A stretch of 64,000 bases of DNA from Thiorhodovibrio litoralis. GTDB taxonomy: Bacteria > Pseudomonadota > Gammaproteobacteria > Chromatiales > Chromatiaceae. The notes beneath the pieces are model-generated. The model saw nothing but the letters and a program-made list of their open reading frames with translations. It searched no databases and was not told the DNA's origin. The DNA is taken from positions 310,001-374,000 of the forward strand of contig NZ_CP121473.1 in NCBI RefSeq assembly GCF_033954455.1. The letters are read 5' to 3'. Position 1 is the stretch's first letter. Every line of letters starts with the position of its first letter. Shown one piece after another: positions 61,165 through 64,000 of this stretch. A program made the translations under genes and the position numbers.

Positions 61165-61178
61165 TTGATCCAGATCAT
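61165..61178 (+). promoter_or_regulatory. FNR/Anr-type box upstream of nrdD
   Basis: TTGATCCAGATCAT matches the FNR consensus TTGAT-N4-ATCAA at nine of ten positions. Its centre is about 70 bases upstream of the start predicted from the TATACT at 61229–61234, near the -71.5 class I position. It suggests anaerobic activation. Confidence 0.75.
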
Positions 61179-61208: not shown

Positions 61209-61224
61209 TCACAATATCTAGTGT
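61209..61224 (+). promoter_or_regulatory. NrdR box 1
   Basis: TCACAATATCTAGTGT fits the NrdR box consensus (acaCwAtATaTwGtgt). It pairs with a second box exactly 31 bases downstream; the two flank a TATACT -10 element, the usual layout for NrdR repression of ribonucleotide reductase genes. Confidence 0.85.
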
Positions 61225-61239: not shown

Positions 61240-61255
61240 ACACAATATCTTGTGC
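61240..61255 (+). promoter_or_regulatory. NrdR box 2
   Basis: ACACAATATCTTGTGC fits the NrdR consensus and lies 31 bases (three helical turns) from box 1, overlapping the predicted transcription start. Confidence 0.87.
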
Positions 61256-61276: not shown

Positions 61277-63349
61277 ATGGCGCATTCCCAATCCAGCCTC
61301 GCCAGCCTGCCGCGGCGCGTGCTTAAGCGCGACGGGGAGGAAGTGCCATTCGCGTCCGCGCGGATTGAGTCGGCGATCCTGCGCGCCGGGCGCGCGAGCG
61401 GGGAGTTTGATGAGCTCGAGGCCGGCCTGCTGACCGCCCAGGTGGTCAAGGTATTGGCGCACCGCTTCGATAACGGGCGCGTTCCGGATATCGAGGACAT
61501 CCAGGATGTCGTCGAGCAGACTCTGATCAGCGCCAATCATTTCGAGACCGCGCGATCATACATCGTCTATCGCGAGCAGCATCGCAAACTGCGCCACGAC
61601 CATCGCACCCTGGTCGATGTCGCGGGCTCCATCAATGAATACCTCGACCGCTCCGACTGGCGCGTCTCAGCCAACGCCAACCAGGGCTATTCTCTCGGCG
61701 GGCTGATCCTGAACACCTCGGGCAAGATGATCGCCAATTATTGGCTCAGCCACGTCTATACGCCCGAGATCGGCCAGCCGCACCGCGACGGCGATTATCA
61801 CATCCATGATCTCGACATGCTCTCCGGCTACTGCGCCGGCTGGTCGCTGCGCACCTTGCTCAACGAGGGGCTGAACGGCGTCCCCGGCCGGGTCGAGGCC
61901 GGCGCGCCTAAGCACATGTCCTCGGCCATCGGCCAGATCGTCAATTTTCTCGGTACCCTGCAGAACGAATGGGCCGGTGCCCAGGCGTTCTCGAGCTTCG
62001 ATACCTATCTTGCGCCCTTCGTGCGGGTGGACCAGCTTGACTACAGCCGTGTGCGCCAGTACATCCAGGAGCTGATCTACAACCTGAATGTTCCCTCGCG
62101 CTGGGGTACTCAGACACCCTTCACCAATCTCACCTTCGACTGGGTCTGCCCGGAAGATTTGCGCGACCAGGTGCCCCTGATTGGCGGCGTCGAGCAGTCT
62201 TTCACCTATGGTGAACTGCAAGCCGAGATGGACATGATCAACCGCGCTTACATCGAGGTGATGACCGCGGGCGATGCGAAGGGCCGAATTTTTACCTTCC
62301 CGATTCCGACCTACAACATCACGCCGGATTTTATCTGGGACAGCGAGAATGCCGAGCGGCTGTTTGAGATGACAGCCAAGTACGGGCTGCCCTACTTCCA
62401 GAACTTTATCAACTCCGAGCTCACCCCCAACATGGTGCGTTCCATGTGCTGCCGGCTGCAGCTCGACCTGCGCGAGCTGCTCAAGCGCGGCAACGGGCTG
62501 TTCGGCTCGGCCGAGCAGACCGGGTCGCTCGGGGTGGTCACCATCAACTGCGCGCGCCTAGGTTATCTGAGCAAGGGCAACGAAGACGATCTGTTCGGGC
62601 GCCTGGACCACCTGCTGCAGCTAGCGCGTCATAGCCTTGAGCTCAAGCGAAAGGTTATCCAGCGCCATCTCGATGCCGGGCTCTTCCCTTATTCAAAGCG
62701 CTACCTGGGCACTCTGCGCAATCATTTCTCGACCATCGGCGTGAATGGCTTAAACGAGATGATCCGCAACTTCACTGCCGACTCGCAGGACATCACGAGC
62801 GAGTGGGGCCGCGAGTTTGCCAGCCGTTTTCTCGATCATGTGCGCGAGCGCATGGTGACCTTTCAGGAAGAAACCGGCCATATGTATAACCTAGAGGCGA
62901 CACCGGCCGAGGGCACGACCTATCGCTTCGCGCGCGAGGACAAGAAACGCTACCCGGACATCCTGCAGGCCGGCAGCGAGGAGTCGCCCTACTACACCAA
63001 CTCCTCACAACTCCCGGCCGGCTTCACTGACGATCCCTTCGAGGCCCTGGCCCTGCAAGAGGGTCTGCAATCCAAATACACCGGCGGCACCGTGCTGCAT
63101 CTCTATATGAGCGAGAAGATCAGCTCCACCGACGCTTGCAAGCGATTGGTAAAGCGAGCACTTGAGAACTTCCGCCTCCCTTATGTCACGGTGACGCCGG
63201 TTTTTTCTATCTGCCCGCATCACGGTTATATCGCCGGCGAGCATGAGTTCTGCCCCAAGTGCGATCAGGAGTTGATCGCGCGTAAGCGCGCTGAGGCCCA
63301 GGGCGCAGAGCTTGCCAGCACCGGCGGAACGCCGGCGCTAACGCACTAA
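61277..63349 (+). CDS. nrdD: Anaerobic ribonucleoside-triphosphate reductase, large subunit lacking the glycyl-radical tail
   Basis: NrdD reduces ribonucleoside triphosphates without oxygen. From ATG 61277 (GAGAGGA about six bases upstream) the protein has 690 residues. It has an ATP-cone (residues about 10–100, RVLKRDGEEVPFASARIESAI) and the reductase barrel with Cys186 (SGYCAGWS) and Cys425 (TINCARLGY). The C-terminus has a zinc-type cluster (CPHHGYIAGEHEFCPKC). The glycyl-radical motif that should follow is absent; the protein ends with LTH. The motif is encoded by the next gene. An upstream TTG at 61250 lies inside NrdR box 2 and is unlikely to be the start. Confidence 0.93.
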   Translation: MAHSQSSLASLPRRVLKRDGEEVPFASARIESAILRAGRASGEFDELEAGLLTAQVVKVLAHRFDNGRVPDIEDIQDVVEQTLISANHFETARSYIVYREQHRKLRHDHRTLVDVAGSINEYLDRSDWRVSANANQGYSLGGLILNTSGKMIANYWLSHVYTPEIGQPHRDGDYHIHDLDMLSGYCAGWSLRTLLNEGLNGVPGRVEAGAPKHMSSAIGQIVNFLGTLQNEWAGAQAFSSFDTYLAPFVRVDQLDYSRVRQYIQELIYNLNVPSRWGTQTPFTNLTFDWVCPEDLRDQVPLIGGVEQSFTYGELQAEMDMINRAYIEVMTAGDAKGRIFTFPIPTYNITPDFIWDSENAERLFEMTAKYGLPYFQNFINSELTPNMVRSMCCRLQLDLRELLKRGNGLFGSAEQTGSLGVVTINCARLGYLSKGNEDDLFGRLDHLLQLARHSLELKRKVIQRHLDAGLFPYSKRYLGTLRNHFSTIGVNGLNEMIRNFTADSQDITSEWGREFASRFLDHVRERMVTFQEETGHMYNLEATPAEGTTYRFAREDKKRYPDILQAGSEESPYYTNSSQLPAGFTDDPFEALALQEGLQSKYTGGTVLHLYMSEKISSTDACKRLVKRALENFRLPYVTVTPVFSICPHHGYIAGEHEFCPKCDQELIARKRAEAQGAELASTGGTPALTH

Positions 63350-63396
63350 TCAATTGTTGTAAAAGACATCCTTCGCCCCTTAATCGGAGACATCTC

Positions 63397-63627
63397 ATGC
63401 TGACCGACGACAACATCGAAATCCGCGACGAAGAACGCACCCGCTGCGAGGTCTGGACCCGGGTGATGGGATATCACCGTCCGGTTTCAGCCTTCAACGC
63501 CGGCAAGCAGTCCGAGCATCGCGATCGCGTCATGTTCTGCGAAACACCGCAGGGCCAGGGGGAACGGTCAAACGCGCACGCGGGCCAATCCGCATTCGAA
63601 GAAGAGCGCCATCTCCAGGCGGCCTGA
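63397..63627 (+). CDS. Separate glycyl-radical subunit of anaerobic ribonucleotide reductase
   Basis: A 76-residue protein containing the NrdD glycyl-radical motif: RCEVWTRVMGYHRPVSAF then NAGKQSEHRDRVMF. Gly25 in RVMGYHRP is the expected radical site. It has its own ATG and ribosome-binding site (GGAGA six bases upstream) and is 47 bases after nrdD, in a different frame. A single frameshift would not join them. A non-conserved polar tail follows residue 50. The likely job is to complete NrdD in trans after activation by NrdG, encoded next. Confidence 0.83.
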   Translation: MLTDDNIEIRDEERTRCEVWTRVMGYHRPVSAFNAGKQSEHRDRVMFCETPQGQGERSNAHAGQSAFEEERHLQAA

Positions 63628-63658: not shown

Positions 63659-64000
63659 ATGTCCGACGCTGTTCAAACCGTTGAGCCAAGGCTGACCTTA
63701 GGCTGTGCGCCAGAGGTCGGTTGTCAGACCACGGCTGCGGAAATGCGCGAGCGATCCAATCTTGAGCAAGCTACCACGGACTTAGCTTCCGCACCGGATG
63801 CAGCAGAGGCACTGCGCCTTGGGGGCCTGACCGCGATGACCACCGGCGATTATCCCGGCGAGTTGGCGGCGACTCTCTTCTGTCATGGCTGCCCGTGGCG
63901 CTGCCCCTATTGCCACAATGCGCATCTGCTCGATGCTGGCCAGGCGCCAGCGCTCGACTGGGCAGAGGCGCGGGAGTTTCTTGCCCGACGTCAGGGGCTG
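63659..64000 (+). CDS. nrdG: Anaerobic ribonucleotide reductase activating protein NrdG (cut by window edge)
   Basis: NrdG is the radical-SAM enzyme that installs the glycyl radical. The first 114 codons are in the window. The radical-SAM cysteines are visible in CHGCPWRCPYCHN (C-x3-C-x2-C), after LRLGGLTAMTTGDYPGELAATLF. The first ~55 residues are not conserved, so the true start may be a later Met such as the one in AMTTGDYPG; ATG 63659 is the first. The gene follows the glycyl-radical gene by 31 bases. Confidence 0.9.
   Translation, partial: MSDAVQTVEPRLTLGCAPEVGCQTTAAEMRERSNLEQATTDLASAPDAAEALRLGGLTAMTTGDYPGELAATLFCHGCPWRCPYCHNAHLLDAGQAPALDWAEAREFLARRQGL

Follow-up and report, generated by a model that had tools for sequence, protein, structure and literature searches.

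The closest described relatives of the enzyme studied here are the one-piece NrdD proteins (E. coli, T4, T. maritima, Prevotella copri), which share with it the NRDD barrel, the finger-loop cysteine and the zinc-type motif, as well as the ATP-cone (where present), a glycyl motif of the RVxGY type and a NrdG-type activase. Unlike in these enzymes, the radical domain of the enzyme described below is carried on a polypeptide of its own. Small free glycyl-radical domains (GRDs) expected to act in trans, with phage-borne versions, are represented by YfiD/GrcA and T4 Y06I, and in these respects they resemble the NrdD-type GRD. However, they serve pyruvate formate-lyase (PFL), restoring the enzyme after cleavage by O2 (PMC8683613), whereas the GRD reported here is of NRDD type and its host enzyme lacks the domain by design. 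In the same paper, YfiD and Y06I are the only validated spare parts, and parts for other glycyl-radical enzymes are considered possible (PMC8683613). Among ribonucleotide reductases (RNRs), the class II catalytic subunit of P. aeruginosa is made in two pieces, NrdJa and NrdJb, from consecutive ORFs (PMC4009431 and PMC4860495). It is thus naturally two-piece, like the RNR described here, but it depends on B12 and has no glycyl radical. The class I NrdA of Aeromonas phage Aeh1 is another case of genes in pieces, with a homing endonuclease between the parts of the RNR gene; one viral locus discussed below (L275) resembles it in this, while the locus that we started from has no endonuclease.

Gene structure of the window locus

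The window, i.e. the whole stretch of 64,000 nucleotides of Thiorhodovibrio litoralis DNA that was analysed, contains a catalytic nrdD chain at 61277..63349 on the forward strand (690 aa, TAA stop; NCBIfam NF006126, 1139 bits), which is over the cut-off of both NF006126 and TIGR02487. The protein has an ATP-cone (PF03477, E 4.5e-22), the NRDD barrel, the finger loop SMCCRL (residue 389) with its cysteines and a C/H/C/C zinc-type motif (CPHHGY at residue 646, CPKC at 659), all expected of a class III RNR. The chain lacks the GRD expected at its C-terminus: the stop comes past the zinc motif and no glycyl-radical motif is present. After a gap of 47 nt, and with a frame offset of 2, there follows an ORF of 76 aa at 63397..63627 on the forward strand, with GGAG 7 nt upstream of its ATG, a cysteine at position 17 and the radical-type glycine, Gly25, in RVMGYHRP. 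The two products complete a single family model. Of the 562 positions of Pfam NRDD (PF13597), the large protein covers 2-529 (E 2e-172) and the small one supplies the last 31 (532-562, E 5e-9); the small protein also matches the final positions of NF006126 (649-682 of 684). An earlier note, made from the letters of the window, had described a large NrdD ending at residue 690 without the radical motif, followed 47 bases downstream by a 76-codon gene carrying this motif in a different frame and with its own ribosome-binding site, and both observations agree with the domain coverage and gene structure found here. Given the joint coverage of the NRDD family and an arrangement that is kept in relatives (see below), a chance arrangement is excluded. 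The closest named catalytic chain on our tree is that of Thiococcus pfennigii (Chromatiaceae), at 87% identity.

The GRD stop is followed after 31 nt by the start of nrdG2 (63659..64000, forward strand, continuing beyond the window end; 275 aa, L032:7660-8487), a cognate radical-SAM activase over the cut-off of TIGR02495 NrdG2 (192 bits) and also matching the Radical_SAM domain. TIGR02491 suits these activases poorly, the H16 control itself staying below its cut-off; PF04055 was added and TIGR02495 used for naming. Upstream of nrdD we located three candidate regulation sites with NrdR and FNR/Anr consensus sequences. The FNR/Anr-type box, TTGATCCAGATCAT (61165..61178, forward strand, one mismatch), is the sole match in the window, where 1.14 are expected by chance, and what speaks for it is only its position upstream of nrdD. 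Two NrdR boxes lie at 61209..61224 (forward strand, one mismatch, with a chance expectation of 0.02 matches for the window) and, 31 bp from the first, at 61240..61255 (forward strand). When 112 nrdD upstream regions, split and one-piece, were counted at three mismatches or fewer, 19 had two NrdR-like boxes, 52 had one and 41 none, and the 31-bp spacing recurred in 15 of the 19 two-box regions. The catalytic nrdD, the GRD gene and nrdG2 thus look like a single operon under RNR control, with the regulation sites as candidates.

The genome is closed (one contig, 5,466,623 bases, 100% complete) and no second NrdD was found in it, its NRDD matches being both window ORFs only; there is also one class I/II-type catalytic domain match (PF02867). 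The natural split proposed in the earlier note is therefore not contradicted by a second full-length nrdD. This also bears on the idea that the small ORF is a GrcA/YfiD-like repair part for another, intact glycyl-radical enzyme and not an obligatory subunit. The protein is indeed a small free radical domain, of which free copies exist in viruses and plasmids, and YfiD and Y06I are validated in such a role for PFL (PMC8683613). Nevertheless we consider it very improbable here: the genome is without an intact NrdD to be repaired, the adjacent catalytic chain is without the domain entirely, the small protein matches PF13597 and no further Pfam family at E≤1, and nrdG lies downstream in 72 of the 74 split loci described in the next section. 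Homology to the PFL C-terminus, as YfiD/GrcA would have, is not seen (judged by Pfam), nor is a coexisting full-length target. The likeness to YfiD/GrcA drawn in the earlier note holds up as an analogy, but not as a statement of function, since the small protein matches NRDD and appears obligatory here.

The locus very probably encodes a class III (anaerobic) RNR made of two polypeptides, a 690-aa NrdD and a 76-aa radical-loop chain. We infer that the two chains form a complex in which the small one would dock on the large chain where the C-terminal domain sits in one-piece NrdD. NrdG2 would then abstract hydrogen from Gly25 of the small chain, and the resulting glycyl radical would pass to a finger-loop cysteine and start ribonucleotide reduction. 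Such a split probably makes the O2-cleavable part cheap to replace.

Spread and evolution of the split architecture

Among 55 kin genomes (the one analysed here included), 26 have NrdD, of which 23 are split, two fused (G026, G046) and one cut (G020), the last with a stop past the zinc motif and a contig end at the expected GRD position. We then scanned the genome collection with the 48-aa core of the small ORF as query, which biases the outcome to the motif. This gave at least 563 confirmed places, of which 80 were kept. These named loci comprise 74 split, two fused (L092, L104) and four with a GRD and no catalytic gene in the flanking DNA examined. Their sources are Chromatiaceae, Ectothiorhodospira, Thiobacillus, Pseudomonas (11 named loci, 11/11 split), Vogesella, Marinobacter, Holosporales, and Omnitrophica and Verrucomicrobiota MAGs. 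In an even, motif-independent draw of 398 Pseudomonadota genomes, NRDD was over cut-off in 56, and reading of the match table and sequences assigned 15 of them to the split and 41 to the fused form; in this draw the split NrdD is common but not the rule, with the one-piece form in the majority. One Pseudomonas-like genus (family f26) has NRDD in 14 of 25 genomes and all 14, each checked on sequence, are split (in G265 the start of the catalytic chain is in another frame). Two of the 15 split cases (G433 and G501; loci L255 and L252) have an E. coli-like NrdD type, with a stop followed by a same-frame short ORF bearing an RRITGY GRD, and represent an additional fission, separate from the others.

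Plasmids also carry the split gene. Of 29 plasmid records with a match, 17 were analysed by HMM, giving 11 with a separate GRD plus catalytic gene, four fused loci (L228, L233, L234, L235) and two orphan GRDs; on one plasmid (L230) the catalytic gene beside the separate GRD also extends over two frames. The gene tables of PLSDB are incomplete; they usually give the name nrdD to the small ORF and, for Cereibacter, list neither part. Some catalytic chains have an insert of ~330 aa (L049, L050, L081, L023, L024; larger in L099), situated near NRDD position 157 in the chains scanned and containing a LAGLIDADG_3 domain in three of three, which is probably an intein.

Plasmid pHG1 of C. necator H16 (L219) has nrdD split into 676 aa and 66 aa, the 66-aa ORF overlapping nrdG. 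In the C. metallidurans CH34 genome paper, the H16 NrdDG is reported as essential for denitrification, with evidence at the operon level and not for the small ORF alone, and the nrdDG of CH34 is given as Rmet_5137 and Rmet_5139 (PMC2864759). The denitrification-essential H16 operon is of the same split type as the window locus. Going by tag order, the locus number between Rmet_5137 and Rmet_5139 is presumably the GRD that we see in L223, and the CH34 listing would then exemplify how easily the small ORF is overlooked. In the 676-aa H16 protein, residue 650 falls on the glycine of CPTHGY, its zinc motif, and it is the 66-aa ORF that carries the radical motif. A G650A mutant of H16 NrdD was reportedly taken by Siedow et al. 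in 1999 as identifying the glycyl radical; if so, that assignment of the radical site needs revision and the mutant phenotype had another cause.

Could readthrough of the stop codon or programmed frameshifting join the two ORFs after all into a fused NrdD? On the tree, fused forms occur intermingled with split ones, and both architectures seem workable. Still, this is very unlikely, given how the two parts are placed. Across the 43 split pairs with an assignable ATG, the gap has a median of 18 nt and a range of -52 to 549 nt, with frame offsets evenly distributed (15/14/14), which argues against a recoding signal. Moreover, in L258 the GRD abuts nrdG and the catalytic gene is 9 kb off with other genes between, so that at least in this case the GRD must act in trans as its own polypeptide. 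Other ORFs are also found between the parts, exactly so at L275:4211-4576, where an HNH_3/NUMOD4 homing-type endonuclease ORF separates a viral catalytic chain from its GRD, and in L339 (catalytic gene itself in several frames), where the intervening ORF is of the radical-SAM type. A GRD directly adjoining an nrdG-like gene is seen in three Holosporaceae loci (L059, L075, L098), with no catalytic gene within the 3.8-8.1 kb examined; in the two that were scanned, L059 and L098, the model assigns the neighbour to NrdG2. In L088 neither a catalytic gene nor nrdG was identified in the DNA examined.

A quick tree built from 62 catalytic chains, of which 50 are split and 12 fused (two outgroup rows very long), needs eight changes of the split/fused label, at least four of them forced by starred branches, and the fused L003 and L092 fall among split rows. 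A single origin of the split is not demonstrable on this tree, in which long branches meet and support is weak for 30 of the 59 inner branches. Among viral catalytic NrdDs (80 kept of 220 confirmed), a scripted call gave 57 fused, 20 split-like and three without a GRD in the flank; of the split-like ones, L280 and L339 are doubtful (catalytic gene in several frames) and several others are near-copies. An endonuclease ORF between the parts, as in L275, is a possible route to fission.

The 28-codon core of the GRD has a pN/pS of 0.126 (60 pairs; 123 distinct cores from bacterial genomes and plasmids, the prophage copies of G029 included), indicative of purifying selection on the small domain. 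In these 123 cores the Met of RVMGY is conserved in 100% and the leading Cys in 99%, several other positions, the Gly among them, being fixed by the search pattern. This conservation, together with the retained NrdG2 activase, leaves hardly any room for a large chain that uses another radical source and a small ORF that is only vestigial, a reading in whose favour we found nothing. The signature Cys-EVWTRVMGY characterizes split hosts (107 of 109 distinct frames) without being confined to them; the Cys before EVW was considered as a mark of split forms only and dropped, because the fused L092, L104, L228, L233 and L235 carry it too. As for the possibility, also raised in the earlier note, that a sequencing error or fresh frameshift has broken a single nrdD in two, the ORFs are indeed adjacent, in different frames and jointly complete one family model, but it can be dismissed with near certainty since 74 of 80 named loci have the same break (isolates and a record titled complete genome included), some GRDs are not adjacent to a catalytic gene at all, a GGAG and an ATG of its own precede and start the small ORF, the GRD core has the low pN/pS given above, and the genome has no other NrdD.

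We modelled a natural one-chain relative (L092, 732 aa) from 58 rows, with a mean pLDDT of 88.3 and a pTM of 0.82. Residues C392, C393, C647, C660 and C663 are invariant across the 58 rows, their roles being assigned by analogy. The GRD blocks at 691-720 have pLDDT 88-92; the linker at 671-680 is weaker (mean 71) and is the site of the chain break in split relatives, and residues 393-412, from the second finger-loop cysteine onward, fall below 50. A first model of this type, with few GRD rows, had given the GRD a pLDDT of ~50 and was replaced after viral one-piece rows were added; aligning the large chains together with the small ones misplaced the latter, and this alignment was left unused. 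The top 36 fold matches to the final model in the PDB are all NrdD chains (8p23, 9dca, 4u3e, 4coi, 1hk8 and others), with TM-scores by query length of 0.53-0.66. The model shows a predicted joined NrdD compatible with the fold, and is one of a natural fusion rather than of the two-chain complex.

Free glycyl-radical domains in viruses and plasmids

One single-contig genome (G029) has two extra GRDs (L034, L035) within prophage-like clusters, whose ORFs include capsid- and tape-measure-like ones as judged from their translations. The viral collection contains 75 GRD loci (L117-L190 among them), with a catalytic NrdD in the flank of two only (L184, L191). Sixty-five IMG/VR records, corresponding to the distinct GRDs minus that of L191 and plus that of L190, were searched whole: 64 had GRD matches only, without a catalytic NrdD (in one, G336, the GRD match is below the Pfam cut-off), and the record of L184 also had the catalytic domain. 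By listed length, 27 of the 64 GRD-only records reach at least 30 kb, and because none of the 64 is rated 90% complete the missing catalytic NrdD is no proof. A radical-SAM domain was found in one of 46 virus records (a 485-aa frame), and TIGR02491 NrdG, a weak model for these activases, in none of the 46.

The neighbours of 63 distinct orphan GRDs (108 upstream and 109 downstream proteins) were compared with PHROG. Among the first 25 of the 124 and 122 families matched were portal (5/108), terminase, tape measure, neck, endolysin, head and integrases; these families have few members each and the output does not give the number of hallmark-adjacent loci, so that some contigs could be cellular. 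PHROG 4132 (function unknown) matches 10 of 10 GRDs scanned, the window GRD included. The GRD cores of the virus records (that of L184 included) are likewise under purifying selection (pN/pS 0.184, 29 pairs), and the Cys-EVWTRVMGY signature is retained in them, with the Cys in 95%. Two plasmids, pALVIN01 of A. vinosum (L220) and pAt1 of A. tepidum (L229), likewise have a GRD only, without a catalytic nrdD over their full length.

A tblastn search of INPHARED with the window ORF gave no match at 1e-3, and with an E limit of 10 two viral GRDs hit 13 and 8 records with no convincing free GRD, some being annotated full NrdD and the rest unannotated or weak. This argues against a wide spread of the GRD among cultured phages. 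Two records (L190, from G337, and G334) have GRD matches with in-frame TGA codons, and these phages may read TGA as sense. Several phage GRDs (L140, L130, L133, L157, L177 and similar) have an N-terminal Cys-rich extension that was not noticed among the cellular GRDs inspected.

We lean slightly towards the view that in viruses and some plasmids a free GRD, carried with neither a catalytic NrdD nor an identifiable activase, is charged by the host NrdG and docks on the host NrdD, often itself split, and so would sustain or renew anaerobic dNTP synthesis during infection or after O2 damage. The free viral GRD is a strong candidate for a spare part of ribonucleotide reductase; if this is true, it would be the first protein of this kind to serve a glycyl-radical enzyme other than PFL.

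A probable detachable radical-storing subunit

In the open full-text literature we found no description of a split or separately encoded NrdD or of a free phage GRD. Nor does any appear in the accessible portions of PMC3019208, PMC11528403, PMC4390871, PMC4860495, PMC9669993, PMC9531940, PMC11226230, PMC4009431, PMC8683613, PMC4493059 and PMC2864759.

The split is real, widespread and more general than the earlier note supposed, and very probably makes an obligatory two-chain class III RNR. The part of the enzyme that would store the radical is a detachable subunit in Chromatiaceae, Pseudomonas, Thiobacillus, Cupriavidus, Bradyrhizobium and others, and for this reason a model that has NrdD as a single chain overlooks an entire architecture. 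As viruses carry such a free domain, the question of spare parts for enzymes other than PFL, which is in print (PMC8683613), becomes directly testable, and the two-chain NrdD is in itself a natural reconstitution system for radical transfer.
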